IMG/VR virus record: IMGVR_UViG_3300009703_003450
Location: 1-28,833 of that record
Origin: a virus
Direction: 5' to 3' (one strand)
Length of the DNA stretch: 28,833 bases
Positions 8,449 through 27,859 of this stretch are shown in pieces (position 1 is the stretch's first letter; every line of letters starts with the position of its first letter). The notes under the pieces were generated by a model. That model was given only the letters and a program-made list of their open reading frames with translations. It made no database searches and had not been told where the DNA came from. The position numbers and the translations under genes were made by a program.

Positions 8449-8462
8449 ATAAGAGGGTCGAA

Positions 8463-9700: not shown

Positions 9701-9715
9701 AATAGTTTCCTCCTA

Positions 9716-11350
9716 TTAAAATACTAAGGTTATTTTGATGTAATTCACTGGATATTTCACCAATACATTAATTTCCACTTGCAACGTATCTGGTGAAATA
9801 GAATCCTGTTTCACTGATGCAACTTGAAAGTCATTTAAGACTCCTTCTCTAACTAGGTACATTCCCACGCCTACTAAAACTGTATTAGCTAGCTTTAGGA
9901 AAGCCGGTGAAATAACATTTTTACCTATATAAGGCGCCATTGCTTTTCTCACAAATTTAGCAGTATAGTCTAGTGCGGTTGTTACACTTAATTCCCGTTT
10001 GGCAATGCTTGTAACATCTGTACTCATCTGGTGTCTTGAAACTATAGGAGCCGCAGGAGATGACTGTGTCATAATATATGTTCCTCCCTCAGCTAAAGTG
10101 TTTAAAGCTGATTCAGAATAGTAATCTTGCGATCCTAATGTTTGTTTAATCCCGTTAATAGCTACATTTGTTAAAGGCTGCTCAGGTGCTTTACCTATGA
10201 CTGCTCCCGCATTAGCGGCGCAGAAGTAAAAACCTGGAACAGGTGCTAGGACAGTTACTTGTCCAGAAGCGCCTCCCCATCCACCAGCAACTAAGTCTGC
10301 AAACACCGTATCTGTAATATACTCCCCAGCTCTATAAGTCTTTGTGCCTACTACTACGTCGGCCGCAAACTTACACTGGTTTCCTACAGAGTCGAAAACT
10401 GTAGTGTGTGCTGTCAAACTGCTTTTAATCCATGAAGACTTAATAGTTGATATGTGTCTAGACTCTTCAACATACGCGGAGTCAGGATGTACATTAAATG
10501 TACGTTTCTTACCTATAAGTGCATTTGCATCTCGCATTGCTCCTGCGTCAATTAGCCTTTCTGAGCTAGTTTGAGACCACCTAGATCCCCCACCAGAAAA
10601 AGACTGTTCTGGATTTAAAAAGAGAATTCGCTCTTTTTTCATCTCAGGCTCTGATTGCGACGTACAATGTGTTCTATAATCCCCGTCTGTAAGCTTGTGA
10701 GACATAGGAGCAATCACATAAGTATCTACTGTTTCCAATACATCTAATGCGTTGCCGTATGCTGTTGCATCTGACGTGCCGCTTACGGCAATAACGTCTA
10801 CTGACGCTCCAGCATTTCCCATAGCTAACGAAGCTCCAAAAGCTAATGGATTAAAGCTGTAAGGCTCCCCAACCCCATCCTGTATGTCCGTAAGACTAGA
10901 ATAGGTTAAATGATTAAAGGAGTTATCTTCCCGTTTTGCCAGAAATCCTACTTTTATAATAGCCGAGTTACCGTGACCTGCAGTAGATAAAACATTCGCA
11001 TTGATTGTTAATCCTGAAGTTGAGACATTTGACACATCATCTGCACCCAATCGCACAGTTGTTCCTGCCCCGCTTCCAGCAGTCACTACAAGGTCTATAA
11101 CCCATAAGCCTGCGTCTGGAAGTTCATTATAGGCAGCATTAACTGTCGAATATGTGATGCTCTTCACAACATTCGTATAAGTTGTCGGATATTCTGAGTT
11201 TCTTAACGGATCGCTGGCATCGTCCCATGACGGGTCTTGCCACCAATAACCCCTTCCTACTATAGTAGCTGATAATTCGGGAGAATTAAGAATAGGTGTT
11301 GCTGTTCTTTGTACTTGTTTTACCTCAACACCTGGTTTTACGTAAGGCAT
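9716..11350 (-). CDS. Contractile tail sheath protein, 544 aa
   Basis: The outer sheath of a myovirus tail, which contracts to drive the tube into the host. The start M-P-Y-V-K-P-G-V-E-V is typical of sheath proteins. The C-terminal part fits the conserved domain that links subunits: L-D-Y-T-A-K-F-V, then V-L-V-G-V-G-M-Y-L-V-R-E-G-V, then V-E-I-N-V-L-V-K-Y-P-V-N-Y-I. Variable domains in the middle would be surface exposed. The ATG at 11350 is preceded by TGGAGGAATAAAAG. All seven Trp codons are TGG, in contrast with the fibre genes upstream. The stop is TAA, with the tube gene starting 16 bases on. Confidence 0.88.
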   Translation of the reverse strand: MPYVKPGVEVKQVQRTATPILNSPELSATIVGRGYWWQDPSWDDASDPLRNSEYPTTYTNVVKSITYSTVNAAYNELPDAGLWVIDLVVTAGSGAGTTVRLGADDVSNVSTSGLTINANVLSTAGHGNSAIIKVGFLAKREDNSFNHLTYSSLTDIQDGVGEPYSFNPLAFGASLAMGNAGASVDVIAVSGTSDATAYGNALDVLETVDTYVIAPMSHKLTDGDYRTHCTSQSEPEMKKERILFLNPEQSFSGGGSRWSQTSSERLIDAGAMRDANALIGKKRTFNVHPDSAYVEESRHISTIKSSWIKSSLTAHTTVFDSVGNQCKFAADVVVGTKTYRAGEYITDTVFADLVAGGWGGASGQVTVLAPVPGFYFCAANAGAVIGKAPEQPLTNVAINGIKQTLGSQDYYSESALNTLAEGGTYIMTQSSPAAPIVSRHQMSTDVTSIAKRELSVTTALDYTAKFVRKAMAPYIGKNVISPAFLKLANTVLVGVGMYLVREGVLNDFQVASVKQDSISPDTLQVEINVLVKYPVNYIKITLVF

Positions 11351-11390
11351 CTTTTATTCCTCCACTTACTTGTTTTGTTTATACTCGAGT

Positions 11391-12293
11391 TTAATAATTG
11401 GCTTCTTCGCCATTATTACGTTTCTTTTTAGAGCCTGTCAAAAACATGCTAGCCATTCCGACCGGTGCGCCGACTAGCCAAGGCAGTCCCTCTTTTACAC
11501 CATACCCTACTCTCTTAGCAAGGCCTGGTTTCTTTTGTTGTCCAACATTGGTACCTGTTTCTTTAGGAGGCCCTGTGAGCATGCCTGTCGCCGCCATGCC
11601 TGGCGCCGTAAATGCAGCTGCCGCAGGTCTAACGATAGCTCGTTTTTTTACTAATCCGGTACCGCGATTAGTTGTAGCTACCACCTTCCTATCAAAGCTT
11701 TTAAAGTTTTTTAAAAATCCTCCACCTTTAACTGTAGTCTGTCCTTTTTTAAGCGCGACTTCTTTATACTGAGATGCTCTTAATTGTTTTTTACTGACAT
11801 CTACCAAATTTTTACCAAATTGTTTTGTACCACTTATAAATCCTTTCCCTTGAACACCCTTACCCATAGCCATTAAGTTTTGTGCTGTATTGCCTATTGA
11901 TGTCCTTATACCCCTAGCCAGGGTGCCGCCTTCAGCTCCCACTCTTTGCATTTTCTTAATATTTATTTTACCGCTCTTTAATGTGGCCTTACTTAACTGG
12001 CTGCCAGGGCCTGCAAAGCTACTAAAGTATTTTAAACCTTGCCCTTTTTTTACAGCAGCAACCCCTCCCTGAGCCCACTTATGCGTATTAGTGGCTTTGA
12101 ATGCATTTGAAAACCCTTTATTCTTTACTGACTTTCCAAAAGAAACGAGTTTTTTAGGCGCTTTACTTACAATTTTTTTTAAAATAGGCAACGCTGCTTT
12201 TCCGAGCGCTGACCAAAAAGCTTGTTTTTCTAGCTCATCTAAAAAAGCTTGCTGCATAATAAAATCCTTCTCTGCTTGTGATAATTTAATCAT
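11391..12293 (-). CDS. Very basic Lys/Gly/Ala-rich virion protein of unknown function, 300 aa
   Basis: No family is recognised. The protein is strongly basic, with many Lys, Gly, Ala and Thr and few acidic residues except near the ends. It opens with a short acidic helix (S-Q-A-E-K-D-F-I-M-Q-Q). Long stretches look low in complexity. The basic charge could suit DNA packaging, internal head contents or RNA/DNA contact, but this is only inference. I chose the ATG at 12293, which overlaps the upstream stop as TAATG, rather than the GTG at 12308, which has its GGAG too close. It lies between a probable tail-completion gene and the sheath gene. Confidence 0.72.
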   Translation of the reverse strand: MIKLSQAEKDFIMQQAFLDELEKQAFWSALGKAALPILKKIVSKAPKKLVSFGKSVKNKGFSNAFKATNTHKWAQGGVAAVKKGQGLKYFSSFAGPGSQLSKATLKSGKINIKKMQRVGAEGGTLARGIRTSIGNTAQNLMAMGKGVQGKGFISGTKQFGKNLVDVSKKQLRASQYKEVALKKGQTTVKGGGFLKNFKSFDRKVVATTNRGTGLVKKRAIVRPAAAAFTAPGMAATGMLTGPPKETGTNVGQQKKPGLAKRVGYGVKEGLPWLVGAPVGMASMFLTGSKKKRNNGEEANY

Positions 12294-13213
12294 TAAACTT
12301 GTAACCACTCTCCGCTTATAGTTTCTTCTCCACCATCTAATTCATTATCTGTTAAAGTCAGTGCTTCTATATTAGGTCCCGAAACAAAAAGATTTTCCAT
12401 AATTTTATAATAACCGTATATGCTTCCTGAGCTAGGTAAAGTAAATATTGCTGTAGCGCCGTCACCAGTTCCTAAGTCCGCTAACTCTACAATACTACTA
12501 TCTATAGCATCAGCATAAGTAACTTGTAAGGCTGTTCCTTCATCTGGTATCGTTGCAAACTGTATTTGAGTCCCGTTGGTAATAACTGAGAAGTCAATGC
12601 CTTCTAAAACTTCAGCACCATTTATATACACATTACAATTATTAAGTCTCTCACTTCGCTGTATATCTCGTTTAGTCAGAAAACTTATGTTGAGCTGAAC
12701 AGCAGATACTTCAATTTCAGAAGTGGCTCTTACAGTACTCTCTTCTCCAAAAGTAAGAGAAGTAATTTGATTAATTCCTTTATTTTTTAATTCTTGTCCA
12801 TAGGCAGTAAAAGCTATAAATAATAAATTAGCTATTTCCTCAGCCTGAACCCCGTTCTTAGATAGAACATTCAATGATACAGATCCCCTAAGTAAATCTG
12901 AGAAACTTTTATTTTTGCTAGTGTCTCCGCTAGGGATTTGAGACCCTAAAAAACTATTAGTTCCGTAAATACTTGATGCGCTTCCTTGCTGCCCCCTTAT
13001 AGAGTAAGTTCACCCAAAACCCCCTCTATTTAAAATAACAGAAGGCCGTCTTGTAACAACACCTACATCTATTGAATTTTTGTCTGCTACAAGTAACTTA
13101 GTAGTCTGTATATCCTTCGTTCATTTATACTTTGTATTTTCAGAAAAAAATTGCTGTACAAAACTTAAAAAAATATATTTTATGTCTAAGCTTATATTTC
13201 CAGTGCCTGCCAC
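12293..13213 (-). CDS. Virion protein near sheath, possible tail completion or terminator protein, 306 aa, two recoded TGA (Trp) codons
   Basis: With the standard code this gene is broken; reading TGA as Trp gives one 306-aa protein. The TGA codons are at 13121-13123 (Trp31, in K-Y-K-W-T-K-D) and 13010-13012 (Trp68, in G-F-G-W-T-Y-S-I-R-G). The start is GTG at 13213, overlapping the upstream TAG stop as TAGTG, with AAGGAG 11 bases before. An ATT at 13219 has better spacing but would be a very rare start. The N-terminal half contains a V-T-R-R-P-S-V-I-L-N-R-G-G segment; the C-terminal half is beta-rich with an N-V-Y-I-N-G-A-E-V-L-E-G module. Position next to the sheath suggests a tail terminator or baseplate role; this is weak. 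Confidence 0.72.
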
Positions 13214-13413
13214 TAAAATGGTATCTCCTTAAATAGAACCTTTTTTAATGGTTTGAGCTTTTCTTTAAATAAACTCGCAACGGACGTTGTTAATTGTATG
13301 TTTTCTGTAAGGGGTACTTTAGCACTTTTTCTAATAGATGCCTTTGCTTCCCTAATTATATACTGATCAACCATAAATTTATCCACATCGCTATCTTCTC
13401 GAACTAATTTCAT
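13213..13413 (-). CDS. Small basic hypothetical protein, first gene of the sheath/tube operon, 66 aa
   Basis: A short charged protein with an acidic N-terminal part (V-R-E-D-S-D-V-D-K-F) and a lysine-rich C-terminal part (K-E-K-L-K-P-L-K-K-V-L-F-K). No family is recognised and no membrane segment is present. It is supported as a gene by its promoter just upstream and by its TAG stop overlapping the next start (TAGTG). The ATG lies only five bases after the promoter -10 box, and there is no Shine-Dalgarno, so its mRNA may be leaderless. A regulatory leader peptide or a small virion protein are both possible. Confidence 0.6.
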   Translation of the reverse strand: MKLVREDSDVDKFMVDQYIIREAKASIRKSAKVPLTENIQLTTSVASLFKEKLKPLKKVLFKEIPF

Positions 13414-13418
13414 GTTTA

Positions 13419-13447
13419 AATATAAACGGTGTCCACAATATAGTCAA
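13419..13447 (-). promoter_or_regulatory. Late promoter upstream of the sheath/tube operon (TTGACT, 17-nt spacer, TATATT)
   Basis: On the minus strand TTGACT (13447-13442) is followed by a 17-nt spacer and TATATT (13424-13419). The ATG of the 66-aa gene begins five bases later. The promoter lies in the 41-base gap after the 1137-aa fibre gene stop. Its layout matches the promoter at 27760-27788 almost exactly. Confidence 0.8.
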
Positions 13448-13454
13448 GTTTTAT

Positions 13455-16400
13455 TTAGTTAACTGACCTAGAGGTTTCATATACTTTGCCACCGTAAGAT
13501 ACTAATGTTATAGTAGATCCATATGTCAAAGTCATATCAAGCCCTTTATAAAGGTGCACATTATTGGTAGTAGAGTCTTGAAGCAATATGGTTGCGCTAG
13601 GGGCGGTTCTTATGTTTAATATGGTTATTTGTTGTCCGTCAGCTACATAATTAGCGAAGGCTGTTACTGTAGACGACGCCGTGGTCGCCCCTTTAAATAC
13701 AAAGAAATTACCAAGCCTTCCATCTACAGATACGTTTCCAGTTGATGTTACTTCAACTGGAGTATTTAAAAATCGCTTGTTTGCAGTTATTGATAGGGCA
13801 CCGCCAGAGTCTCCTAGGTCTAGCATGCTTGTGCTATTCACAGTCATATTAATTGCATCAGTTCCTGCACGTGTATCTATAAAAGTGGTGTTTGCGGGGT
13901 TTTGGGCTCTTCCAACGGTATCCCATTCAAACTCTGAAAGAGTTGAATTATATCCTAAAAAACTTCCCTGAGAGTAATTATTGCTAATAGTGATATTAGA
14001 AGCCCCTATGGTATCTACAACAAGTGTTCCAGGAGATCCCTGTACACCTGGTTCAATAGTTAATGTGCTCTGATCTACGTTTACACCTAATCCACCTGCG
14101 GTAGAGGTTAAGGCAGAGCCTTCTCTGTTTTTTACCTGCAAGCCATCTTGAACTACTTCTAAATTTTGATGGTTGGTTGAGGCTACATTAACTTTTAACT
14201 TGCCAGAGGCGCTGTCAGTCATTATAGAAGTCCCGTCTGCATCAACTTTTAATTGCCAATCGTTAATCGAATCTTGGGCTAATCCAGCCCCAGCTAAACT
14301 TCCTATAACTTCTCATTCCATGTTCCCTAAATCATTAATAATTAGCATGCTATTGTCTGTTCCTTTGGGTAGTATACCAGCCGCAGAAAGGCCTGATCCT
14401 ACTACTAAGTCTCCTGCTGCTGTTCATATATCATCTGTCGAAACATCTCCAGATCCTCCAGATCCTCCAGATCCCCATGTATACCCGTCTGCATTATCAT
14501 TTACTTGTAGAGTTTGTCCGGACGCTCCTATGTCTACCGCAACAAAAGATCTTCCTAAATTTGGCCCTCTCATTAAAAGAGCTGCATCATGTCCATCATC
14601 TGCACCTTGCCAATCATTAAGGCTTGGTTGGACTTCGGCTTTCTTTGTAACAATTAGTCCAAGCTTATTAATTTCTGATGACTCCATATCCAATATCTCA
14701 GATTGACCTAAGTCATTTACATTGTTAAATAATCCATAGTAGCCAGAGCCAAAATTCGAGTCTTGTACTGTTAAACTAGGCGAAAATTGGCTAAAATTAC
14801 CTGCAGGATTTGCATCTAAATATTTAAATGTTACATCAAATCATTGTGGGGTGTAAGCAAGTGCAGGATCAGTTGACCATGTAACGCCGCTCCCAACTAA
14901 ATCTGCATCAGGTAAAGGCCCAGATGCCCCTCCAGCTGCATTATTCGAAGAATCTCTAGTATAAGCACTGCAATCCACAGATACCAAACCTGCCCCCTCT
15001 TCAAATCTATAGTAAGCTAATAATCCCTCTTCTGGTGTAATGACTGATCCATCTAATGATGGGTTTTGGAAATTAGAGGGTACTCCATGGTTCCACGCTT
15101 TAAAAACATCTGCTTTATTAAAGTAATAATCAAAAAATGAGACTTCGTCAATTTTTAATGTTCCCTGAGCAGCTGGCGGTACGGGGGGAAATCTAAACCT
15201 TAAGTTAGGCCCACTAATCGATGCATTAGATGTGTCGTCATTCCAAGCAGTATCAGAGCCGCTCGCTCTATGAATTACATTGTAAGTTCTATAAGATCCA
15301 GCATCCTGCAATAGATCCGTAACTTCGAAAATTTGAACCGATGAAGCATTTGAGCTGCCCCCACACGCATATATAAAAACGGGGTAATCAGGCCTACTAA
15401 CATACGTTTCAAATGTATCTAATGCGTTAGAAAAACTAGCTCCTGTATAGTCATTCTCATCAATTTTTATCTGAGTATTTTGATAAGGATTAGTATCATA
15501 CAATGAAAACTCTCTATCTCCGGGATTACTTATAGTTTGGTCAAATTTCATTTGTATTGTTAGGGCTTCTAATGTATTGACCTCAGCTAAATCGCTAGGC
15601 GGGCTAGTGCTTCCGATATCTTCATTATATTTGGCTTTTCACTTATCACCAACATAATAGTCTCATGTATGAGGATCATCTGAACCAGTGGCTTGTGCTG
15701 AATAGGTTTCTGCCATACTTAAATAAAAAGGCACAACCCCTATTTTAAAATAAGCACTGGACTGTATTGGACTAAAATACTTAACTTGAAACCATCCAAA
15801 TTTAGTTGTATCACTATCTTTTGTTACTTTAAGGTATACATCAGATCCTGCGTCGAACTCAGCCTTTAAAGCCTCGTAATCAGGCTGTCTGCTTGAGCCA
15901 GTATTGTCAATTTTATTAGGATAAAAGGCGGCATTTAGGAGACTTCCTCCTTCATCGTCATAGTTTTGAGTCCTTAAATCTCTTCAATAAAAAGTATTGC
16001 CCCCGCTATTTCATGAAGACGCATTACCTGTAGTGTTACCAGCCCATCCCCAAAAAACTGTGTTATAATCATTAAGATTGCTGTTATCGACAGGGGTACT
16101 ATCTGTCGTTCGTCGCTTATACGTAAAAGAGTATTCAGGAGATTCTATCAAGGGTGGCGGAGTAAATTTTCCAATAATAATATCTTGGTTAACATTCATT
16201 TCGTATTTTTTAATAACATCAGATTCGACATTAACATTTTCTAATTGATTGTTCTGAAGAACGTTATCAACATATACCGATCCACCAAATAATGAGGCAG
16301 GTATAGTAATTACAGCATGATGCCAAGCATCGTCGTTATAAGCGGTATTGGAGACAGGTTGCCAATCACTTCCATTAAATTTTACATTAAAAATGCCATT

Positions 16401-16868
16401 AATCAAAGCCGAGGCAAAAGTGGCCCCTGCTTGTCCTGTTATATCTGTGTCTCCCCTACTTATAAACTTAACATTGGCTGTAGAGGTCTTAAACCAAAAA
16501 CTATTTGTAAAAGGCTTTCCCCCTAATTCATAGGCCAATGTGAATGGCTGGTGTAAATTAACATAATTATCATCTCCAGAATCAACTTGTAAAGAGTATG
16601 TGTTTAAATCAAAACCACTTATGCCAAACCATATATCTTGGTCTTCAACTATGCCGCCATCTCTATCACTAGTTAAGGCTCAAGTATATGTGGACCCGCT
16701 GTCTGTAGTAGTTGCTTCAGCTTCACTATTATACTTATCATCAAACGATCACTTAATACTAGTAAGATAATCAGCCTCGCTTTCTATAATTGTTCCAACT
16801 AAATGAATTTTAGCTGGTGCTTGTTTTTTAAGCGGGTTTAATTTAAAACTGGTTTCTAGTGCTGGCAT
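13455..16868 (-). CDS. Giant LamG-containing tail fibre or adhesin protein, 1137 aa, nine recoded TGA (Trp) codons
   Basis: One reading frame runs from the ATG at 16868 (TAGGAGATAAAGG before it) to TAA at 13455 if TGA is read as Trp. The nine TGA codons encode residues 40, 63, 286, 295, 402, 410, 676, 815 and 852, with contexts such as S-I-K-W-S-F-D-D, H-T-W-D-Y-Y-V-G-D-K-W-K and M-E-W-E-V-I-G. There are about 14 TGG codons as well. Residues about 105-230 look like a LamG/concanavalin-type sugar-binding fold (S-F-W-F-K-T, then D-A-W-H-H-A-V-I). A second such start appears near 618 (L-L-A-Y-Y-R-F-E-E-G). A Gly-Ser linker at about 799-807 leads to a fibre-like C-terminal part. It is probably a host-binding fibre. 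Under the standard code it would appear as at least four false ORFs. Confidence 0.85.
14448..14474 (-). repeat. Three tandem 9-bp copies encoding a Gly-Ser linker in the fibre gene
   Basis: Three exact copies of TCCAGATCC (plus strand) encode a Gly-Ser-Gly repeat at about residues 799-807 of the 1137-aa protein. It marks a flexible joint between the N-terminal lectin-like part and the C-terminal fibre part, and is a likely site of repeat-number change. Confidence 0.85.
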
Positions 16869-16878
16869 CCTTTATCTC

Positions 16879-19800
16879 CTAGTTAATGTTAGGTTCTTTA
16901 ATATTTAATATATATGTACCATCAGCTGTATTTGTTAGCTGAGTGTGCAATGTTGGGCTTAGTGTAGCAATTCCATTTTCATCCGCACTCATATTAATCA
17001 ATAATTGATTATCATTATTCGGATTAATAACTAAAAAAGCCGCAGAAACTGTAGGGCCTGCCGCAACAGTTACATTCCCTAAGTTTGCTGCATCATGAAA
17101 ACCTGTTGCACTTCCTTTAAAAGCGCTATCAGCTAATGCATCAATACTTGAATATCCAGTAGATTGGTCTTCAGCATTATACCCTGGAGGAGTAAAGCCG
17201 CCGTTAATAAGCCACTTCCATCAATTTGCTGTCACGCTCTTAGTTTGCGCAGTCTGCATATAAGCATTACCAGTAACATAAACGGCCCCATCCTCAACGT
17301 CCGAATGGCTTCCAGATATAGTATAGCTAGCTTCGTAATAATTTGACGCCGTATTAGACAAGGATGCACTAGTAGGGCCTCCAAAAGCACTAAAATTAGC
17401 CGTATAGGAGGGGTTGATTCCGCTGCTATGATTTATGCCTACAGTAATAGTATTGTTATAATAATAGTAGTCTACCTGATTTAGTGTGGGCATGTCAAAT
17501 ATCAGAGGTTCCACAGGAATTATATTGATACCCGATGTGACCGGGATGGTAATATTAGATGAAGCTTGGGTTGCTGTTAATGTTCCTTCTGTGGTGAAGG
17601 TTAAGAAATTTCCAGAGGCTGTCATAATGCCTGTATAGGTTCAGGTAATATCTCCTGATAAAGTACACAAAGATTGTGCGTCGTCTAAAGATACTGAATA
17701 CTCTTCTCCAATCCCAATAGTAGGGGTTAGGTTTGGAGCGCTGCCGTCTGCTGCTTTTATAGAAATAAGTGGTGCTAGTCCGTCTACAGTAAAAGTCTCT
17801 ACTTCCGTATCCACACCGGATGCTCCATCATTAGTCTGCGTAGCCTTAACTTGATACTCACTTGCTGATGCATCAAAAGTGTGTGATATAGTTCCATCTA
17901 AGTCTTCCCCCGAAATAAGCGTTCAGCTACTCCCTGAATCTATACTTTTGTAAAAATCAAAACTTCTTCCATGTTCACACCCCGGAGCGTCTACAAAAAT
18001 GTCCACCGACACCCCTGCTCCAGGAGTTGTTTCTATATAAGTTGAACCATTATTAAAGTTACTAAGAGATAGCCCGCTTTGGAACACGCTATGAGGATCC
18101 CAGTCATAGCTTATAGTGGCAAAGTCGCTGTAGTAGTCTCATGTATTATAAACGAAGCGTGCTTGTCCCGAAATAAGGTATGTCCCACTAGTAGTTTGAG
18201 ACCAAGATTGTACACGAAGGCCCACTACAAATTCTGAAGATACGCCGTCCTTTCAAGAGTAGGTGCCGGCAGCAATAGTAGTGTTGGATTCTAAAGAGGA
18301 AGTGTCTATATTCATAGTAAACTGAACATCCGAATTTATATGTTGTGGGGATGTTAGGTCTGCACTAATGCTGGTAATTACTGGCTTTAAAAAATCTCTA
18401 GTTTTGATATTAAAACCATAAGTGGTGTCAGACACGACCTCTCCCGCCATATTAGTAGCTGATATCCCAGATACTGTTATGGGGGTAGTTGTGAAATTGG
18501 TATTGGGAGCTCCTGTTCCATGAGGCACCGTTAAGGTTGCCGTGAATTTTTGATTGTCTGCTGTCCCGTCCCAAACTAAATCTGCAATTGTATGGTCTGT
18601 GGGCAAGTTTTCAAAACCCGCAATACTTGGAGTGCCTTGTATCTCATCGTCAAACGTGATATTAAAAGGATAAGTTCCAGGGGTGAGCTCCTGGTTGTGT
18701 ATAGAGACATTACTAATAGCTGGGGCCGAATTATCGATCGGAAAGGCGTACATCGCTGTTGTAGACATTCCATTATTAGCATTGTAAGTTATGATTGCTG
18801 CGTTATCAACACCGGTATGTTCAAACTCTGTGTTGCTATTTAAAGTAAAAATTATTGGGGTGTTTCCGTCCGGATTAGTTACGTCTAAGTATCTATTAGC
18901 CACGCTTACTGGGTTGCTTGATGCATTCTCGGATCCATAAAATTTTATATCTGTTGTATTACTAGATGCGGTTGGGTTCCATGTTAAGCTATTTCCATTA
19001 GACAGCATTGTATTTCCGTTTCCAATTGTGTAGTTATCTAAATTTGATAATGAAGGAGCTGTTTTATTAAAGACAACCGATGGCAGCTCGACAACCTCAG
19101 TGCCTCAGTAATAATCAGTTATTGTTGCTGATAAGACGATGTTTGTATTATTATCTCAATCATCCACAACTGCGGTACCCGTAAAAGTAGTTTGACTCTC
19201 GCTTAGCGTTACTGAGTTTTGGAGGGCGGCGTGAGATACCTCAATACTTATGTTGGACCCTCCGTGGGTAGTCTGCACAGCTACAGCTAAACTTGACCCA
19301 GTGGAGGCCTGTGTTTGACCTTCTTCCAGGCCAGTTATAGGGTTAGTAGATGAGGGTAAAGTCACGGAAGAGCTATTTACTTTAAGCACTCCAGGAATTG
19401 TAGGAGTAAAGGGGTTACCATTAGAACTAACAAAGCTAGACTGTTTTCCTGACGAGTTTGTTACTGTTGTAGAAAAATTGAGGGACTCATCAGACATAAA
19501 AGTGTCATCAATTGTTAGTCTATAATAACAATATGAGTTACCCGACCATGACCGACTATTGCTGTTATAGGGGGAGTCAGGCCCGTCCCAAGGTTCTAAA
19601 TTTATTCCATTCGGGTATGTATCTGTAGCCACAGTTAACGTGGGCGGCTCATATTTAGGATCTTTCTGAAGATAGTCCGTAGCTGATATCCTTAATTTAT
19701 ACTCTCCTATAGTAATAGGATGGTTTGTATTACTGGATATTGTATAGGTTGTATTCCCAGAAGCACCTCCTTCTACTAAAGAAAGGTGTATATAATCGCC

Positions 19801-21048
19801 ACTCCAACCAGCGTCTACAGGTACAGTAATTTTTTGATCAAGGGCTGAATTACTCCCACCATTAAAGGCTGAGAAAGCTTTAAAAGTAAGATTATTGAGG
19901 GAATTGGGAGTTACCTCACTATTAGCGGAAGTTAATACCCCTGCAATACCAACCCCTGTACTCTGTATTTCATAAGAAGCGGAAGAGAACCCTGTATTTG
20001 TAGATACTGCTGCACTATTATTTGCAGTAAAAGTGAATGTATTACTGCCAGTAACAGCAATTCCTAAAATATCTGGATGTTTTCCAAAGTAACTGTTTGT
20101 ACTATTGGAGGCAAGATTTGTAGAAAAGGTGTCGTTTACCGCTAAAGACGAATTTAAGGACGCAGTAAAAACAATAGGTCCTAAGGAATCTCAGGCAGGG
20201 GTGCTGTTGTCATACAATATTGGGTTATTTTCTTTATCAGAAAAGTCAGGTGTGGAGGTATATACTCCTGAAATTGTTGTGCCGTCTACTACTCTAGTAG
20301 CTACAATCTTAATTCTTGGTGTATTTATTAAAGTATTATTGTGCTGTAAGCTGCTCGAAGTTAAATCAAACTTATTATTTGCAGTAGTTTCTCAGGTAGA
20401 CCCATTTTGTACTAAGTTAATAGGCCCGAGAAGCGTGTAATCGCTGTTTATATCTGATGTAAGAATAGAAGCTGTGACTGCGCTGGGTGTTCCTCCTGAG
20501 GTCGTTACTGACAGTTTTCCTGCTGTAGTTCCTCCGCTTGATATACTTTGTCCGCCTCTAAAAGCACTTTGCTGGTATGAGTCACCTAAAAACGGTGTTT
20601 GGGGGTATGTTATAGTAGGTGCGTTTGGCGTCGCTGGGCCTGTATCTCTGAATATATCAAAGGATACGTCTACTGTCTCAGACCCGTTATTTACCTGTAT
20701 CATGTAGGTATTTTGCCCAGAACTCAGTGTAAGGGTTAGAGTAAAATGTATCATATCATCGTCCGTAGAAACGGCTGATGATACAATGCCGGTAATAGGG
20801 CTGCCCTCTTCATACACGGTATATGCAGGATACACTATGTTATCTGAGGCGTATGCTACATGGGGCAAAGTCCACCCCTTTATCTCAATAGTGTTTACCC
20901 CTACTGTATACGTACCGTTAGGAGTGGGGTAGTCTTGGTTATGTAACTTCGTAACTACAAGCCTATTATATCCCGTGGCAATGGTTTCTGATTGTATTTC
21001 AAACTGAGTAGTTCGAAGATTAAACCCAAATTTAGTTCGTTCAGGCAC
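16879..21048 (-). CDS. Giant Ig-like repeat fibre or adhesin protein, 1389 aa, nine recoded TGA (Trp) codons
   Basis: With TGA read as Trp, a single frame runs from GTG at 21048 (AAAGGA before it) to TAG at 16879. The TGA codons encode residues 219, 286, 631, 648, 932, 970, 1042, 1136 and 1276. Contexts include N-G-S-T-W-E-T, D-Y-Y-W-G-T-E, Y-N-T-W-D-Y-Y-S-D-F and G-D-I-T-W-T-Y-T-G. About ten TGG codons occur too, one next to a TGA (W-W-K-W at 1276-1279). The protein is rich in Thr, Ser, Asn and Val, with repeated Ig-like beta modules: I-S-N-V-S-I-H-N followed by Y-P-F-N-I-T-F-D-D, later P-V-I-T-S-I-S-A-D. No Cys-rich or enzyme motif is seen. It is probably a virion surface or fibre protein. 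Confidence 0.82.
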
Positions 21049-21052
21049 GAGC

Positions 21053-21493
21053 TTAAATCCTTTCTATAGATGTTAAGTCTTCTGTGGTGATGTCTTTAGT
21101 AATTTTTAAAGTGGCTACAAGGTTTGGTGCAGCGATTGCGCCGTTATAGTAGTATACATACTGGATATTACCACTTGGGACAATGTTTATATTGGTGTGT
21201 CTTTCTGGTACTAACCCGCCCCCAGGTAGAGTTCCGTCTTCCATAAAAATTTGTATGTCATTTGGATTAAGGCCGGATAAGCTTCCATTATCAAAAGTTA
21301 CATCTTGCCCTGATACTGTGATATTTAATGTGGGATCAGCAAAATTATAAAGCAATGTCCCTGATGAGATGTCGGTTGCAATTAAAAACTGTGTAGGGGA
21401 TAAGGTAGTACCTAATCCGGAAATAGTTATAGTATTGTCATTTGCACTGACATTAGTTATCTCTCCCTTATCAACACCTACCATTATCTTCAT
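21053..21493 (-). CDS. Hypothetical beta-rich virion protein, 146 aa
   Basis: No family is recognised. The sequence is beta-rich with many Asn, Thr and Gly and includes I-T-N-V-S-A-N-D-N-T-I-T-I-S-G-L-G, a pattern common in phage fibre and baseplate accessory proteins. It has no Trp at all. The ATG at 21493 overlaps the upstream stop as TAATG, which suggests coupling; a second ATG three codons on is possible. Its TAA stop lies five bases before the GTG of the giant Ig-like protein, so it may be a baseplate adaptor for that protein, by position only. Confidence 0.7.
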   Translation of the reverse strand: MKIMVGVDKGEITNVSANDNTITISGLGTTLSPTQFLIATDISSGTLLYNFADPTLNITVSGQDVTFDNGSLSGLNPNDIQIFMEDGTLPGGGLVPERHTNINIVPSGNIQYVYYYNGAIAAPNLVATLKITKDITTEDLTSIERI

Positions 21494-21936
21494 TATAAAG
21501 CTACCGCCATTGCTATTGCAAAAGGTTTTTCAGACTGAGCCTGCTCATTGTCGGTTGAAACCCACCCTTCTGTTTTTAATGCATAATTCTTGTCATCGTC
21601 TGCATTATATAACTCGCCCCCTAGCCCATCTTCATTAGCACTGTATATAATATGGAATCCCGTATAAGTTGCAAAGTCCTGCTCATACTCACCGTATGTT
21701 ACGATATCATTATTGGTTAATGAGGCATACATGCCTGAGCCTATTATCCCAAAACCTGAATGTAAAGCAGTAACATCTTCTAAAAGATAAGAGTTTCCAG
21801 ATGTTAGGGTAGGTACTAAATCAGCAGCTTTCTGAATATTAAGCACACGCAGACGACTAACAGGCCGGTTACCCAGCCTGGCTTCGTCTTCAGTTAATAC
21901 TTTCTCATCTAGCTGTTCTACTCTAATTTTAGCCAA
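21493..21936 (-). CDS. Hypothetical tail/fibre-associated protein, 147 aa
   Basis: No firm family. The N-terminal part is helical and charged (M-A-K-I-R-V-E-Q-L-D-E-K-V-L-T-E-D-E-A-R-L). A beta-rich middle (Y-L-L-E-D-V-T-A-L) and a D-D-K-N-Y-A-L-K-T-E-G-W-V-S stretch resemble small fibre-linked domains that carry a G-x-W motif. The start is TTG at 21936, overlapping the previous gene; AAAGGATTTAGACA before it gives a good ribosome binding site, which supports the unusual start. Its one Trp codon is TGG. The stop is TAA. Confidence 0.7.
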   Translation of the reverse strand: MAKIRVEQLDEKVLTEDEARLGNRPVSRLRVLNIQKAADLVPTLTSGNSYLLEDVTALHSGFGIIGSGMYASLTNNDIVTYGEYEQDFATYTGFHIIYSANEDGLGGELYNADDDKNYALKTEGWVSTDNEQAQSEKPFAIAMAVAL

Positions 21937-22402
21937 TGTCTAAATCCTTTTTAGCTCGAGATTTTATTATAGCTTCCTGTATTGGAACTGGCTTACTTTT
22001 TTTCTTTTTTACAGGCTTCTTGTTGTCTTTCTTTTTAGTCAAAGTATACTTCTCCTTTAACTCTTTTTTAGCATCTAGATAGCCTTTCTTAAAGAATTCC
22101 TCTTGAGCGTCTGTTACGTTATCAAAATTTTGTTGGGCTCTTCTTTTTATAGTGTCTTCATATCCTTGGACTTTTGTATCCCAAGAAGTATTTACTGACT
22201 CTACTAAAGAGGTGGCCTGCTTCAAAGCACTTTGTGCCTGTGCAAGGCTTCCCTTACTTTCTTGATAGTTTTTAGCTGCTTCTTCAAGTGCATGCTTAGC
22301 AGAAATCCAAGCAAGTTTATTTGCCTGGACTTCTGCTTTATATTTAGTTTCTTGTTGAACGAAGGCCTTAAAGGCCTCGTCCGGATTAATTAATGTGCTC
22401 AT
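21929..22402 (-). CDS. Coiled-coil, lysine-rich virion protein, 157 aa
   Basis: A mostly helical protein. Residues about 10-115 have a heptad-like pattern with many Ala, Lys, Glu and Gln (A-L-E-E-A-A-K-N-Y-Q, later S-A-L-K-Q-A-T-S-L-V), consistent with a long coiled coil. Residues 118-140 are very lysine-rich (K-K-K-D-N-K-K-P-V-K-K-K-K). The family is unknown; a fibre stalk, chaperone or scaffold role fits such a shape. The ATG at 22402 has no clear Shine-Dalgarno, which is unusual in this operon, so it may depend on coupling to the 683-aa gene ending 14 bases upstream. Its two Trp codons are TGG. Confidence 0.72.
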   Translation of the reverse strand: MSTLINPDEAFKAFVQQETKYKAEVQANKLAWISAKHALEEAAKNYQESKGSLAQAQSALKQATSLVESVNTSWDTKVQGYEDTIKRRAQQNFDNVTDAQEEFFKKGYLDAKKELKEKYTLTKKKDNKKPVKKKKSKPVPIQEAIIKSRAKKDLDIG

Positions 22403-22416
22403 TTATTTTAAGTGGT

Positions 22417-24468
22417 TTATATTGTGTTATTTTCAAAAGGACCTGCTATTACAATTTCATCTTTAGGTGCAAACCTCCAACCTAGATTTGAAATGTTAGG
22501 AGTAATGTATGCCCAGCCTGCGTTACTGATACCTATATCAGTGGCGCCTAAAGCTGCATCAGTCCAGTTAATTTCGTATGCATCTGGCTCAAGTAGGGAC
22601 CCATTTACAGATACTTGGAATTTATCTTTATCTGCATTTGAAGGAGTGCCTGTAGATAGGAAACCGCTATGTGGCTTAACATCTTTAAAATACCATTTAT
22701 TGTGTCCAGTAGCTGTGCTTGCAAACTCATTTTTAAGCTGTTTTAGGTTGTCTATCCACGCACCGCCTGACTCTTTTAAGTTGGATATGTCCTCTTGCAT
22801 AGTACCTAAGTTTGCCCCTGAAGTGACTGTGATGTGTCCTACTTTTGTTTGTTCATCTGTTGTGTATGTCTCGTCAGTAAGAGACAAAGTGTCCCCTGTT
22901 AAAGTTATACCCGAAACAGCAGTTAAGTTTGTATCGTCTGATATATCAATAGGATCTACTGTTATTTGCTGTCCGCTAATACCTAAATAGGATCCTGAAC
23001 CTGTTAATGTAACGTCGTCGGTATTTCCAGATATTTCGCCTTGCACAAAAGCAGTTGTAGCGATTTGAGTACTACTATTACCCCCACTCACCGTAGGAGC
23101 TTCAGGAGTACCAGTAAACGTAGGTGAATCTATTCTAGCTAGAGTTCCATTAGCACTAATAGTGACGTTGTTTCCTGACCCAGTAGTAAGTATATCATTA
23201 CTTCCCAATATTGCTAGGGTTTCTGTATCTAAGTCTATAGATAAGCCCGTCGTAGTAGTGTCATCTGTAAACTCTAAACTAGCCGCTGTGGCCGTACTAT
23301 CTACATAAGCTTTAATTGATTGTTGTGTTGCTAATTTAGTACTAGAATCAGAAGCCATACTATCTTCATCTAGTACAAATGCCATTGAAGCAGTCGTTAC
23401 GCCACTTGCCATCACGGCACCAGCAGCAGAAACATTAGCTGTGTCCGTGACATCGGCAGAAGTTTCAATACCGCTTAACTTAGTTTTTAAGGTAGTAGTA
23501 AAGTTCTCTTGTGTTAATCCGCTAGCACCTACAGTGTAAGTAGTATCCGTAAATAACGCTCCAGGAGGCACTGCTGTTTCCACAGTTAAGCTATTAACTG
23601 TTGCAGCGTTTACATTTAAAGAGTTTACGCCCGATGTGGTAAGTATAAAATTATTAGCAGAATCTTCTATACCGTCTAGTTTAGTTTGCATTGCGCTGAT
23701 ATTTGAACCAGTTATCTTTGCCGGGGAGCCTTCATTAGAAGCTTCCCAAGCCTGGTCTCCCTCATCCCATAAAAACTTTGGAAATGAAGTATGTCCTGAA
23801 ATACCTATCTCAATACCACCAAAGCCAGTGCCTGATGCAATAATTGGAGTTGAGACGCCGCTAATAGTTTCAAACCCTATGCCAATCTCCGAGTCTTGAA
23901 AATCAATATTAGCTACATCAAATTCTATTGTAGACCCTTGAACGGATAAATCACCAGCAATATATACGTCACCCGTATTTGGGTTCATGGATACTTTAGC
24001 CGATGTGCTATTATCAGCGTGTAGAGATAGCTGAGCTGCTGATGCAGAGTGCCCTGTCCAATCTAAAGAGCCTCCAGTAGGGGTCCAGGTGCTCGCTTCC
24101 GTGTAGCTCACAGGTGTGGAGCTCCATGTCATACTTGCTGCAGTCTCGTCGACTACCGGATAAAGTTTAAACTGGTCGACGCCTAGATCAGTAAGACTCG
24201 CTACTTTAAAATAAGCCGGAGCTTGGTTTATAGGCAGACCATCTGAATCTGTTAAAAGGACAAGATCGCCTTCAGCAAGTCCATGAATGTCAGGCGGGGT
24301 CCCCGCGTCTATATCAAATAAAGCATCTGACCCATCTTGGTCTATGGAAGATATGCTTCCAGAAGAGAGTACCTTGGCATGCTCCCATTTTAAGAAGTTG
24401 CTTCCCACTGACCCCAGTGTGAAATCTCCCGTGTTTGTTGTTTGTCTTGATAAATCTATTAATGGCAT
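22417..24468 (-). CDS. Tail fibre protein, 683 aa
   Basis: A large fibre protein. The part around residues 450-475 has the common phage fibre motif D-S-P-T-F-T-G-T-P-E-A-P-T-V, then T-Q-I-A-T-T-A-F-V. Upstream there is L-A-T-Q-Q-S-I-K-A-Y-V-D, another recurrent fibre element. The middle has repeated short Thr/Ser/Asn-rich beta stretches, and the C-terminal part a helical section (M-Q-E-D-I-S-N-L-K-E-S-G-G-A-W-I-D-N-L-K) before a terminal domain. The ATG at 24468 follows AGGAGGATGCACTA. It contains 11 Trp codons, all TGG, although its neighbours use TGA freely; this contrast suggests a different origin or constraint. The stop is TAA. Confidence 0.85.
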   Translation of the reverse strand: MPLIDLSRQTTNTGDFTLGSVGSNFLKWEHAKVLSSGSISSIDQDGSDALFDIDAGTPPDIHGLAEGDLVLLTDSDGLPINQAPAYFKVASLTDLGVDQFKLYPVVDETAASMTWSSTPVSYTEASTWTPTGGSLDWTGHSASAAQLSLHADNSTSAKVSMNPNTGDVYIAGDLSVQGSTIEFDVANIDFQDSEIGIGFETISGVSTPIIASGTGFGGIEIGISGHTSFPKFLWDEGDQAWEASNEGSPAKITGSNISAMQTKLDGIEDSANNFILTTSGVNSLNVNAATVNSLTVETAVPPGALFTDTTYTVGASGLTQENFTTTLKTKLSGIETSADVTDTANVSAAGAVMASGVTTASMAFVLDEDSMASDSSTKLATQQSIKAYVDSTATAASLEFTDDTTTTGLSIDLDTETLAILGSNDILTTGSGNNVTISANGTLARIDSPTFTGTPEAPTVSGGNSSTQIATTAFVQGEISGNTDDVTLTGSGSYLGISGQQITVDPIDISDDTNLTAVSGITLTGDTLSLTDETYTTDEQTKVGHITVTSGANLGTMQEDISNLKESGGAWIDNLKQLKNEFASTATGHNKWYFKDVKPHSGFLSTGTPSNADKDKFQVSVNGSLLEPDAYEINWTDAALGATDIGISNAGWAYITPNISNLGWRFAPKDEIVIAGPFENNTI

Positions 24469-24489
24469 TAGTGCATCCTCCTAAATTGG

Positions 24490-25149
24490 TTAAGCAAGTG
24501 TTTTAGTTATATTGCTATTTTTTGAAATTGTTATTGATCCTGTTGTGGGATGAATTTTTGTATTTTTTTGTAATAAATTAATGTGCCCTCTGTCATATTG
24601 ACGTTGTACAACTTTAACTCCTATGTCGTCAAGGACCCAGTCTTTTAAACCTTCCCATGTGTCTCCATTTGAGGCCCACACAGCTGTATCAGCTGGGGTA
24701 GTTGAAAAAGTTCTGTCCATGTAAATTCTATCATTCGCAAAAAAAGCATTAAAACCAGTTCCTGCTATATTATCTACTTGTGTAAATGCATCTTCCCCGC
24801 TCCTCATTAAAGACTTGGCAATCCTCTTAGGCAGTAAATAATGTAAGTATCGGTATCTTTCGTCTCCTATACCTCCAGTATCATTTACTATTCAATCCTT
24901 TATTAGACTTTTAAAGTTACGCGTTTCTAACGTCCAACCTGTAGCAACTAAAAGGTTTGCTTCAGTTTTTAAAGCATTACTATTCATACCTAAAGGGCTT
25001 AAAATCATGCTGTTATACAAGCTCGCCTTTTGCGTCTTTAAGTATACTAGCAGTAGTAAAAAACTATCTGCTGTGGTGGATGCTATTTCATCCTTAAAAC
25101 TTCGTGGAATGTCTCCCAAAGTGTTTTTAGCGTAAGTATCAAAATCCAT
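24490..25149 (-). CDS. Virion structural protein (baseplate or connector type), 219 aa, one recoded TGA (Trp)
   Basis: Two apparent ORFs join in the same frame when the TGA at 24892-24894 is read as Trp86, in K-S-L-I-K-D-W-I-V-N-D-T. The result is a 219-aa protein with no other break. The N-terminal half is helical (S-F-K-D-E-I-A-S-T-T-A-D-S-F-L-L-L-L-V-Y); the C-terminal half has more beta character and D-W-V-L-D-D-I-G-V-K-V-V. Four Trp codons are TGG. The ATG at 25149 is preceded by AGGAGGATAATAA, which overlaps the end of the upstream gene. The family is not recognised; position between connector-like genes and fibres suggests a baseplate component. Confidence 0.75.
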
Positions 25150-25152
25150 TTA

Positions 25153-25563
25153 TTATCCTCCTGAATTAAAATCTCGTTGAAAGTATACTCCTATTGAGTC
25201 ATACTTTGCTATTGATATACTACCCCCATTTCTTAAATTTTTTATTAAAACATAATCGTCCCCAATAAAAAAATCTACTCCAGATATAGTTGATCTCTGA
25301 TTTGTAGCAGATAAATAGTAAACTCCGTTTATTATAACCACTACCGACCCATTGCGCAAGCTTTCTCCTGTATTTAATGTAAGAAAAAATTTAATTCCTA
25401 CAGCATCACTCACTCCGTCTGCCCCATTAAACCTAGCAAACGAAGTAATTCCCCCTACAGCTTCTAAAGAGTCTATTCGACTTGACAGCTCAGCGTCGTT
25501 ATCGTTTCATTTAGTGCGACCCGTAGCTATTGTATCAGTGGAGCTAACTTTTTTGATAGCCAT
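25153..25563 (-). CDS. Fibre-like structural protein, 136 aa, one recoded TGA (Trp)
   Basis: The start is ATG at 25563, two bases from the TAA of the gene before. The TGA at 25507-25509 encodes Trp19, in T-G-R-T-K-W-N-D-N-D-A-E-L. This looks like the N-terminal element of many short phage fibres, where a Trp follows a basic residue and is followed by an acidic, coiled-coil-like stretch (E-L-S-S-R-I-D-S-L-E). The rest is beta-rich with N-G-V-Y-Y-L. With the standard code only a GTG start at 25413 would remain and a third of the protein would be lost. The only Trp codon in the gene is the TGA. No specific family is recognised. Confidence 0.75.
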
Positions 25564-25564
25564 A

Positions 25565-26365
25565 TTAGGTGCCTATCGATATTTGGTATACATAGTCGTC
25601 AGGAGATATTAAACTGATCTGTACTGACTGCTCTATTAGCACCCCATCTTTTTCTAAAGGCCTAATCTGCCTTACAAGCCATCTTCTGTTTATATTATCG
25701 ACTATTACATCTCTGGGGCGTAATGGGGGATAATTTAGAATATTCAATACCGCATCGCTCGGTAAAAATTCTCCAAACATAGTAATTTGGTTGTACTTGG
25801 GCGCTGCGTTTATCATACCCCTTACAGAGATCGGATCGAAGTAGCCTTGTAAAAATCCGGTTCCCCAGCACGTAGGGCAATTAGAATCTGTAGATCTAAA
25901 CAGAACCTCATCAAAGCATACAGTGCAATAAGTTCCATACGTTCTTCTTTTTAAAATAGTAAGATCACGGCCTACAAATCTATCTAAAACTTTCTTCTTT
26001 CTTCTAAGAATCTCCTTATATGCTTTATTTGTAGAAGAGTCATTTACATAAGCAGGTAAGCTTGGCTGAATAGAGTCATTTGCTGGTGTCGCTATTTCAT
26101 ATATGTGTAGCTTATAATACCACTTACGATAGGGGTCGTATAAATTTGTTATGGAAGTATCTGTATAGGAATATGTGTCTGCCCCTATTCCGCTGGCAAT
26201 TAATTCATAGCCGCTTATAGAGGCCGCCTCCTCATTAGGAGACTCCGCTCTATATACATCTATACCGTATGCAGAGAAAAATTCCTTACTAGGTTTAAAA
26301 TCCCACGTCAGGGTAAGCTGGTCTACGTTGAAGGAGCTTACTGTTAATGAGTTTAGTGTTAACAT
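25565..26365 (-). CDS. FN3-like plus zinc-knuckle structural protein, 266 aa
   Basis: Residues about 1-95 look like a fibronectin type III fold: L-T-L-T-W-D-F early, I-D-V-Y-R-A-E in the middle, then K-W-Y-Y-K-L-H-I-Y-E. After a basic linker (R-R-K-K-K-V-L-D-R-F) come two Cys pairs, Cys147-x2-Cys150 and Cys163-x2-Cys166, the second in C-P-T-C-W-G-T-G. This is a probable zinc ribbon, of a type seen in some phage head-tail or baseplate proteins. The C-terminal part is beta-rich (D-V-I-V-D-N-I-N-R-R-W-L-V). Four Trp codons are TGG. The ATG at 26365 has only a weak ribosome binding site. The exact virion role is unknown. Confidence 0.78.
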   Translation of the reverse strand: MLTLNSLTVSSFNVDQLTLTWDFKPSKEFFSAYGIDVYRAESPNEEAASISGYELIASGIGADTYSYTDTSITNLYDPYRKWYYKLHIYEIATPANDSIQPSLPAYVNDSSTNKAYKEILRRKKKVLDRFVGRDLTILKRRTYGTYCTVCFDEVLFRSTDSNCPTCWGTGFLQGYFDPISVRGMINAAPKYNQITMFGEFLPSDAVLNILNYPPLRPRDVIVDNINRRWLVRQIRPLEKDGVLIEQSVQISLISPDDYVYQISIGT

Positions 26366-26380
26366 TATTTATAGGTGCTC

Positions 26381-26878
26381 TTAAAGATCTCATCCGCTTT
26401 TGGGACCGTACTCCGAGGCAACGCCCCCATAAGCTGCTTCTACATTTTGTCCAAGCTTCATACCTGTAACTCCCCGCATATACTTATTAACTAGTACATT
26501 ATAGTAATTTATATACCGCCCGTATTTATCCATATCTTGTACAGTAACGCCGCCGCTGTCTTGGTAGGTCAAAGTATTACGTGCTGATAGAATCCCTTTA
26601 CTAGTGAGTATTTGGAGCGTTGCTCCTAATTTTAATAAGTTTCAGCTAGGAACCGAAGCTATATTTTGGTAAACAATAGAAGTCGGGCTAAACTCGTAGT
26701 TTATCTCATCTAAAGCATCTTGTATTGCGTGGTGCAATTCTTGGTCAGTGGATTCTTGCACTTCGTCGAGAGTGTTGAGCTCTGCAGTATCTCCTAAAAA
26801 CTCTCGAAGCCTTTCTACATATAAGGAATCTTCGAAAGATATAATATTGGTTAACATTTCTTTTTTAGTTCTACCCAT
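26381..26878 (-). CDS. Head-tail connector-type protein, 165 aa, two recoded TGA (Trp) codons
   Basis: The frame is continuous from ATG at 26878 to TAA at 26381 when two TGA codons are read as Trp: 26642-26644 (Trp79, in S-V-P-S-W-N-L-L-K-L-G) and 26390-26392 (Trp163, in K-S-G-W-D-L then stop). The N-terminal half is acidic and helical; the second half contains L-T-Y-Q-D-S-G-G-V-T-V and K-Y-G-R-Y-I-N-Y-Y, a pattern I associate with phage neck or connector proteins. The gene starts inside the end of the upstream gene (8-base overlap) with GGAGG before the ATG. Both of its Trp codons are TGA. The second TGA would cost only three residues if read as stop. Confidence 0.78.
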
Positions 26879-27209
26879 TGTAATCCTCCAGAATAGCGAT
26901 TGTAAGAACGCCTTGGGTTGGGACAGTTAGCCGGTCATCTACCCCGTAAGTAATTTCAAATTCACCTAAATAGGTGCCTGCTGTGTCTGTGTTAACAGGT
27001 GCCCAAGAGTAGCGAACTGCTCCTCCTGCCTGATCTACAAAGGTACACGCCTGTGAATTTACTTTTACTTCGTTAGTATCAGAATCCTTCATAGTGAAAG
27101 TGACGGACTGTGCTGAAGTTAAATCCATGGCCGTGCCGTCTATATCTGTTAAGGTAACATCTAAAAAAGGCCTTGTGTCGTTTCGTTTCATGTAAATTAT
27201 ATTGGCCAT
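26871..27209 (-). CDS. Ig-like structural protein (BppU N-terminal-like), 112 aa
   Basis: A small single-domain beta protein. The opening R-N-D-T-R-P-F-L-D-V-T-L-T-D-I-D-G and the following D-L-T-S-A-Q-S-V-T-F-T-M-K-D match the pattern of Ig-like domains found at the start of phage baseplate upper proteins and in many small connector-region proteins. The end of the domain is visible as G-T-Y-L-G-E-F-E-I-T-Y. The ATG at 27209 is preceded by TAGGAGATACT, where TAG is the stop of the gene before, so the two are tightly coupled. The single Trp codon is TGG. The stop is TAG. Confidence 0.75.
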   Translation of the reverse strand: MANIIYMKRNDTRPFLDVTLTDIDGTAMDLTSAQSVTFTMKDSDTNEVKVNSQACTFVDQAGGAVRYSWAPVNTDTAGTYLGEFEITYGVDDRLTVPTQGVLTIAILEDYNG

Positions 27210-27217
27210 AGTATCTC

Positions 27218-27754: not shown

Positions 27755-27759
27755 AGTTT

Positions 27760-27788
27760 AATATATACTATATACAAGTTTTAGTCAA
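27760..27788 (-). promoter_or_regulatory. Late promoter after the capsid gene (TTGACT, 17-nt spacer, TATATT)
   Basis: On the minus strand TTGACT (27788-27783), a 17-nt spacer and TATATT (27765-27760) end five bases before the ATG of the 178-aa gene. It sits just after the capsid terminator, so it starts a new late transcript. It has the same boxes, spacer and ATG distance as the promoter at 13419-13447. Confidence 0.8.
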
Positions 27789-27807
27789 GAATTTATTGGA
27801 CAATAAA

Positions 27808-27834
27808 AAAGGGCTTTGAAAATCAAAGCCCTTT
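27808..27834 (-). terminator. Rho-independent terminator after the major capsid gene
   Basis: A perfect 12-bp stem (27808-27819 with 27823-27834) closes a 3-nt loop. On the minus strand it is followed by a run of T residues. It lies 26 bases after the capsid stop and just before the next promoter. It would cap the abundant capsid transcript and separate it from the downstream operon. Confidence 0.92.
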
Positions 27835-27859
27835 AATAAAACTACAAGTATTAGCTTGT

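Follow-up and report, generated by a model that had tools for sequence, protein, structure and literature searches.

The stretch analysed here comprises positions 1 to 28,833 of the virus record IMGVR_UViG_3300009703_003450, a linear record of 28,833 bases (hereafter, the window), in which 29 likely genes were translated (plus strand, 11; minus strand, 18). The plus-strand block (3..8990) encodes part of a ribonucleotide reductase, JAB and ThiF/E1 proteins, a calcineurin-like phosphoesterase, a sigma-70 factor, DNA polymerase A and a dNMP kinase, among others; the minus-strand block (9053..28777) is structural and includes sheath, fibres and the major capsid protein. The two are referred to as early and late, labels that were inferred from strand and gene content. 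Here we describe TGA codons that interrupt the late genes and appear to be read as tryptophan (Trp), together with a transfer RNA (tRNA) of related phages that may be their decoder.

In-frame TGA codons were located in six late genes, all on the minus strand. The gene at 12293..13213 (306 amino acids under genetic code table 4) has two, with first bases at 13123 and 13012. Nine are found in a tail-fibre/depolymerase-like gene of 1137 amino acids at 13455..16868 (first bases 16751, 16682, 16013, 15986, 15665, 15641, 14843, 14426 and 14315), the product of which has a weak Pfam match to Phage_depo_C, slightly below the cut-off. Nine more occur in a long gene of 1389 amino acids at 16879..21048 (first bases 20394, 20193, 19158, 19107, 18255, 18141, 17925, 17643 and 17223), for which family and solved-structure searches returned no match; the two very long proteins together hold 18 of the 24 TGA codons. 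The genes at 24490..25149 (219 amino acids) and 25153..25563 (136 amino acids) have one each, with first bases at 24894 and 25509, respectively, and that at 26381..26878 (165 amino acids) has two, at 26644 and 26392. An earlier, sequence-only reading of the window had counted 2, 9, 9, 1, 1 and 2 TGA codons in these six genes and no TAA or TAG, and a recount of every gene agreed exactly (24 TGA, 0 TAA and 0 TAG across 3352 codons). The residue contexts that it quoted were also correct (PHTWDYY at residue 402 of the 1137-residue protein; NTWDYY at residue 970 of the 1389-residue protein). The remaining five frames over the same DNA contain 90–270 TAA plus TAG codons; therefore, the open frames of the six genes are not due to chance.

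Gene ends and codon usage were in line with a change of meaning for TGA. All 29 genes end in TAA (21) or TAG (8), which bears out the assertion that no gene in the window ends in TGA. Among Trp-type codons, TGA accounted for 24 of 86 in the late genes (with 62 TGG) versus none of 27 in the early genes, where every one is TGG (Fisher p = 0.0008), and the early block is compatible with the standard code. The proposal that recoding belongs to the late genes stood in that TGA was seen only there, but several late genes, the capsid, sheath and 683-residue fibre genes among them, are free of TGA, and recoding is not found in every late gene.

Relatives were gathered by a search with the capsid protein, which recovered 57 viral loci at 45–87% identity, and their genes were then aligned codon by codon; a sheath-based scan of viral contigs gave no matches. 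Homologues covered five of the 24 window TGA sites, four of which were informative, and all four faced Trp, which answers the call of the sequence-only reading for such an alignment. Residues 31 and 68 of the 306-residue protein are encoded by TGG in nine of nine relatives each, residue 19 of the 136-residue protein is Trp in four of five relatives (two of these use TGA as well), and 18 of 21 have Trp at residue 79 of the 165-residue protein (first base 26644); the second TGA of the last gene is its third-last codon, at the C-terminus, and was uninformative. The reverse pattern was also observed, with TGA in relatives at positions where the window uses TGG. The 1137- and 1389-residue proteins, with their 18 TGA codons, had no homologues among the relatives compared, and for the remaining window sites the assignment to Trp rests on a shared code.

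The meaning of TGA was also put to a vote across the relatives, in which TGA was written as X and the proteins of eight recoded relatives were compared solely with non-recoded ones. By majority, 147 of 215 TGA columns were Trp (37/59, 26/36, 34/54, 15/21, 8/10, 14/20, 7/7 and 6/8 for the individual relatives), a rate about equal to that of TGG columns in the same genomes, while glycine held the majority in a single TGA column overall. Since TGA columns are Trp by majority, as TGG columns are, we read TGA as Trp. The homologues at testable window sites and the vote over relatives thus support the proposed TGA-to-Trp reading, by which the window phage would decode TGA as Trp in its late genes.

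The window is collinear with three near-complete recoded records, G012 (205.5 kilobases, kb), G004 (210.2 kb) and G013 (210.3 kb), in which the early genes are grouped in a single block on one strand, opposite to that of the late genes. TGA is approximately as frequent as TGG in their late blocks; their early blocks are almost without TGA codons, and early blocks of recoded relatives have almost no TGA gene ends. By comparison, 16–40% of genes end in TGA in the non-recoded relatives G002, G003, G014 and G016. The window therefore appears to be a piece of a tailed phage genome of roughly 200 kb in which UGA is read as Trp in late genes, a late-only restriction that agrees with the known phage pattern. 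An exception to the early/late rule was noted in G012 and G013, where a minus-strand cluster of TGA-containing genes lies inside the early strand (L122:976-8927 and L133:2149-6187); some of its genes are glycan-related (a DegT aminotransferase, a glycosyltransferase 11 and an asparagine-synthase-like gene).

The sequence-only reading had recommended a search for a tRNA-Trp with a UCA anticodon and for a phage tryptophanyl-tRNA synthetase (TrpRS) or release factor. ARAGORN found no tRNA in the window, nor in the first loci of the relatives, and as the window holds none, the decoder was sought in the relatives more widely. Arrays of tRNA genes occur in the large relatives, some of them with tRNA-Trp(CCA), and reading of UGA by tRNA-Trp(CCA) alone was considered for that reason and dropped once a UCA tRNA was found. 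ARAGORN reported this tRNA as 'tRNA-SeC (tca)' in G012 and G004; a third copy, in G013, was seen by Rfam models and missed by ARAGORN. In all three the gene lies on the late strand, immediately upstream of an amidase gene. The expected UCA tRNA thus exists in recoded relatives, but not with the architecture of an ordinary tRNA-Trp, and ARAGORN found no canonical UCA tRNA in the large recoded relatives. The recoded record G009, which has no UCA tRNA, covers part of the G012 phage and ends before the site. A synteny search using a ParM-like gene downstream of the amidase-site tRNA recovered four further loci, of which L184 (strongly recoded) and L181 have the UCA tRNA and L177 and L178 (not recoded) do not. 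The non-recoded G002, G003, G014 and G016 also had no UCA tRNA, and their covariance model matches were ordinary tRNAs at ≤46 bits.

The search for accompanying enzymes was negative: 14 relatives yielded neither TrpRS (PF00579) nor the RF-1 domain (PF00472), and the window is without PF00579. Such genes are an optional feature, found in some recoded phages only. TrpRS was likewise missing from 36 suppressor-bearing records, and as four of these have suppressors of the canonical type, its absence cannot separate the two types of tRNA.

The UCA tRNA of the relatives has two anticodon-like arms (hereafter, the dual tRNA), as have dozens of similar tRNAs in other phages. It has an acceptor stem of 7 pairs, a T stem of 5 pairs, U72, G73 and mostly A1-U72, with the CCA end encoded in most copies. 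The first arm has the loop CUUCAAA with anticodon UCA. The second, at the position of a long variable arm, has the loop (G/C/U)UCCAA(A/C), mostly of 7 nucleotides, which is similar to the tRNA-Trp(CCA) anticodon loop. In five lineages found by synteny the second-arm loops were GUCCAAA (three lineages), UUCCAAC and the 8-nucleotide GGUCCAAG, with CCA present in all five. About 20–27 nucleotides, paired into an arm, separate the UCA arm from the T stem, and across 26 clusters, a set selected on U72-G73 and a UCCA loop, the spacer from the CCA arm to the T stem was 3–5 nucleotides, mostly 4, as for a normal anticodon arm. Pairing of the CCA arm was kept throughout these clusters with many compensatory changes, and acceptor pair 1-72 was A1-U72 in 22 of the 26 and G1-U72 in the other 4 (U72-G73 being a selection criterion); the A1-U72, G73 acceptor identity of Trp was also seen in a scan without selection on it. 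RNAalifold predicted both arms unaided from 24 sequences, with compensatory change in 19 of 23 pairs. The two-arm architecture is therefore well supported. The dual tRNA occurs on several backbones, and its presence on Trp-like, Sec-like and Leu-like forms suggests a repeated origin. In L210 a normal tRNA-Trp(CCA) lies 8 nucleotides downstream of the dual tRNA, and UGG can therefore be read without the CCA arm.

The generality of the CCA arm was assessed by scanning viral contigs. A first scan, in which both the UCA and CCA loops were part of the pattern, also took in ordinary tRNA-Trp whose D arm contains TTCAAA; it was left out of the frequencies and replaced by a second scan without the CCA requirement. 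This yielded 66 distinct UCA tRNAs, 52 of them long-armed. Among long-armed UCA tRNAs with U72-G73, the CCA loop was present in 29 of 30 by automatic parsing (30 of 31 after correction of one misparsed G012 copy), compared with 0 of 14 UCA tRNAs of the tRNA-Sec type in the same scan (Fisher p = 3e-8, even when the misparsed tRNA is counted against the association). A covariance model built from the dual tRNA alignment scored the dual tRNAs of G004, G011, G012 and G013 at 63–71 bits, with the G004, G012 and G013 copies matching by construction as members of the training set. Ordinary tRNA-Trp(CCA) of some recoded records reached up to 63.6 bits, and the model is therefore not fully specific. 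Nine pattern matches were obtained in bacterial genomes, seven of which resemble genuine tRNA-Sec in which CCA occurs by chance; the two in metagenome-assembled genomes were one clear case (L396) and one doubtful (L393). The former (L396:4038-4089, minus strand) is a two-armed UCA/CCA tRNA on an 11.7 kb contig of a Coriobacteriia metagenome-assembled genome, perhaps itself a phage contig. BLAST searches of isolate phages gave partial matches only, mostly to ordinary tRNA-Trp, and no named isolate.

Presence of the dual tRNA was associated with recoding. In larger stretches of six sampled dual-tRNA phages, coding coverage rose in all six when TGA was treated as sense, strongly in G033, G049, G051 and G052 and partially in G041 and G043, while none of three tRNA-Sec phages gained coverage. 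Over short loci, the coverage gain also differed between the dual and Sec types (p = 0.0009). Among the collinear relatives, the recoded near-whole records (G004, G011/G012 and G013) have the dual tRNA and the non-recoded ones do not.

The explanation that we consider probable is that the window belongs to a tailed phage of about 200 kb whose late genes read UGA as Trp by means of a two-armed tRNA, with UCA for decoding and CCA for the TrpRS of the host. The UCA arm would pair with UGA on the ribosome, and the CCA arm would offer the C34-C35-A36 identity that the host enzyme requires and that a UCA anticodon is missing. Bacterial Trp identity elements have been reported as G73, A1-U72, G2-C71, G3-C70, C34, C35 and A36 (PMC9976931). 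No phage TrpRS would be needed if the CCA arm supplies this identity, and a tRNA lying in the late block would leave early genes under the host code and place late genes under the new one. Because the UCA arm follows closely behind the D stem and the CCA arm ends about 4 nucleotides before the T stem, either arm might stack under the D stem, although a conformational switch of this kind is speculation. As a general proposition, that UGA-to-Trp phages use a two-anticodon tRNA in which the UCA arm decodes and the CCA arm serves as an identity handle for host TrpRS, perhaps by arm switching, we lean only slightly in favour. The roles in charging and decoding are ones that we infer, and the window phage presumably carries the same dual tRNA beyond the window, judging from its collinear relatives.

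Several observations weigh against this interpretation. The window itself has no tRNA, and L181 has the UCA tRNA yet is only weakly recoded across 11 kb. Recoding is only partial in G041 and G043, and at short loci the dual and Sec types showed no significant difference in TGA/(TGA+TGG) (p = 0.11), a weak test since many tRNA loci are arrays of low coding density. At the level of structure, acceptor pairs 2-71 and 3-70 are not G-C in every cluster, and the minimum-energy fold of the L210 dual tRNA is not the five-arm form. The sole exception in its class is L331:2905-2999, on a contig that looks TGA-recoded; this UCA tRNA combines a complete Trp acceptor with a long arm that lacks the CCA loop. 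Two two-armed UCA tRNAs with the loop GUCCAUA (L336:5402-5493, minus strand, and L318:4851-4945, plus strand) have a G1-C72 (C72-G73) acceptor, and are perhaps differently charged or an intermediate form. Finally, ordinary UCA tRNAs with short variable loops and Trp-type acceptors occur in phages at L311, L315, L335 and L338, and as these partial records lack TrpRS too, the CCA arm is not obligatory.

These last four tRNAs also lend some weight to a simpler account, in which the window phage practises ordinary late-gene recoding with a canonical tRNA-Trp(UCA) encoded elsewhere in its genome and makes no use of the two-armed form; a window of 28.8 kb cannot reveal the phage's own tRNA. We regard this as unlikely, given that recoded relatives covering the region have the two-armed form at one conserved place and, by ARAGORN, no canonical UCA tRNA. 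Similarly doubtful is the view that the CCA arm is a by-product, either a duplicated anticodon arm or a variable arm of class II, retained for the sake of folding or of the ribosome rather than of recognition by TrpRS. Long variable arms are known in tRNA-Ser, tRNA-Leu and tRNA-Sec, and several dual tRNAs do have Sec-like or Leu-like D arms. However, the UCCAA loop stays constant across differing tRNA backbones while its stem changes by compensation, and the CCA motif tracks Trp-type acceptors and not tRNA-Sec.

The other alternatives were rejected. Hosts that use code 4 or code 25 (TGA as Trp or glycine) exist, and in such a host nothing about the code would be specific to the phage. This is very improbable here, as TGA is not used in all genes and is missing from the early block with its 27 Trp codons, glycine leads in only one TGA column, non-recoded relatives end genes in TGA, and the recoded ones carry their own UCA tRNA. 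A reading of the UCA tRNA as a phage-encoded tRNA-Sec, with selenocysteine at some TGA codons, is suggested by the ARAGORN label and by RF01852 scores slightly above the cut-off for the copies of one lineage, but is extremely improbable in light of the 7+5 acceptor/T branch, one pair shorter than in tRNA-Sec from the same scan, the U72, and homologues that show Trp and not cysteine at TGA. Sequencing or assembly errors in ordinary genes, with nothing in their favour except the breaks themselves, are a negligible prospect, considering that 24 of 24 breaks are TGA with none TAA or TAG, that Trp stands at the testable positions and that independent contigs show the same usage.

Some further features of these genomes were recorded. 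Three adjoining early genes at 3546-4880 (plus strand) form a ubiquitin-like-looking trio in which a JAB peptidase and a ThiF/E1-like protein accompany an 84-residue protein with GG at its end; homologues of the 84-residue ubiquitin-like candidate end in GG (G012), GG (G004) and GGK (G013). The sigma-70 family factor of the early block (5853-6650, plus strand) is a candidate switch for the late genes. Several relatives encode their own transfer-messenger RNA with varying tag peptides (L125:16897-17268, L137:4475-4855, L144:19007-19330 and L150:15541-15943), and in the recoded G012 and G013 ARAGORN reports an additional tRNA, which it labels Pyl, whose anticodon is CUA, for amber (L126:5393-5469 and L137:15365-15439).

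TGA-to-Trp recoding (table 4) in phage late genes has been described previously (PMC10746230 and PMC11210395, citing Borges et al. 2022), and the window phage is a further case of it. The likeness extends to TGA as Trp in structural and lysis genes, to early genes that fit the standard code and to relatives with a UCA tRNA of their own. As differences, no TrpRS or release factor was found in the relatives, and a further anticodon-like arm, bearing CCA, is present in their UCA tRNA. Canonical tRNA-Trp(UCA), known from Mycoplasma and some phages, shares the UCA anticodon, usually A1-U72, and G73, but is a four-arm cloverleaf with a variable loop of 4–5 nucleotides in place of a whole second arm. 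The dual tRNA resembles tRNA-Sec (selC) in its UCA within a CUUCAAA loop, its long extra arm and, sometimes, a D stem of 6 base pairs, yet tRNA-Sec has a 13-base-pair acceptor/T branch and G1-C72, whereas the dual tRNA has 7+5, U72-G73, CCA in a mostly 7-nucleotide extra-arm loop and Trp at the decoded sites. It shares with the class II tRNA-Ser and tRNA-Leu a long arm between the anticodon and T stems; unlike theirs, this arm mimics the anticodon loop of another tRNA and lies 3–5 nucleotides from the T stem. No description of a two-anticodon tRNA was found in the open-access full-text literature, a scope that does not take in Borges et al. 2022, and among suppressor tRNAs the decoder of the relatives looks like a novel variant and possibly a class of its own.

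The proposal concerns a point that has not been clear, namely how a UGA suppressor obtains Trp from a host enzyme that reads a CCA anticodon. A Sup-TCA tRNA was reported in only 11 of 73 table-4 phages, many isolates of which infect code-4 hosts (PMC11210395), and a share of this gap may be due to two-armed tRNAs that went unrecognised or were labelled SeC. A tRNA with both anticodons would bear on the charging of Trp as well as on the scarcity of recognised table-4 suppressors. If the proposal is true, decoding and charging identity are separated within one tRNA, and the dual tRNA would offer a route to uncouple charging from decoding.

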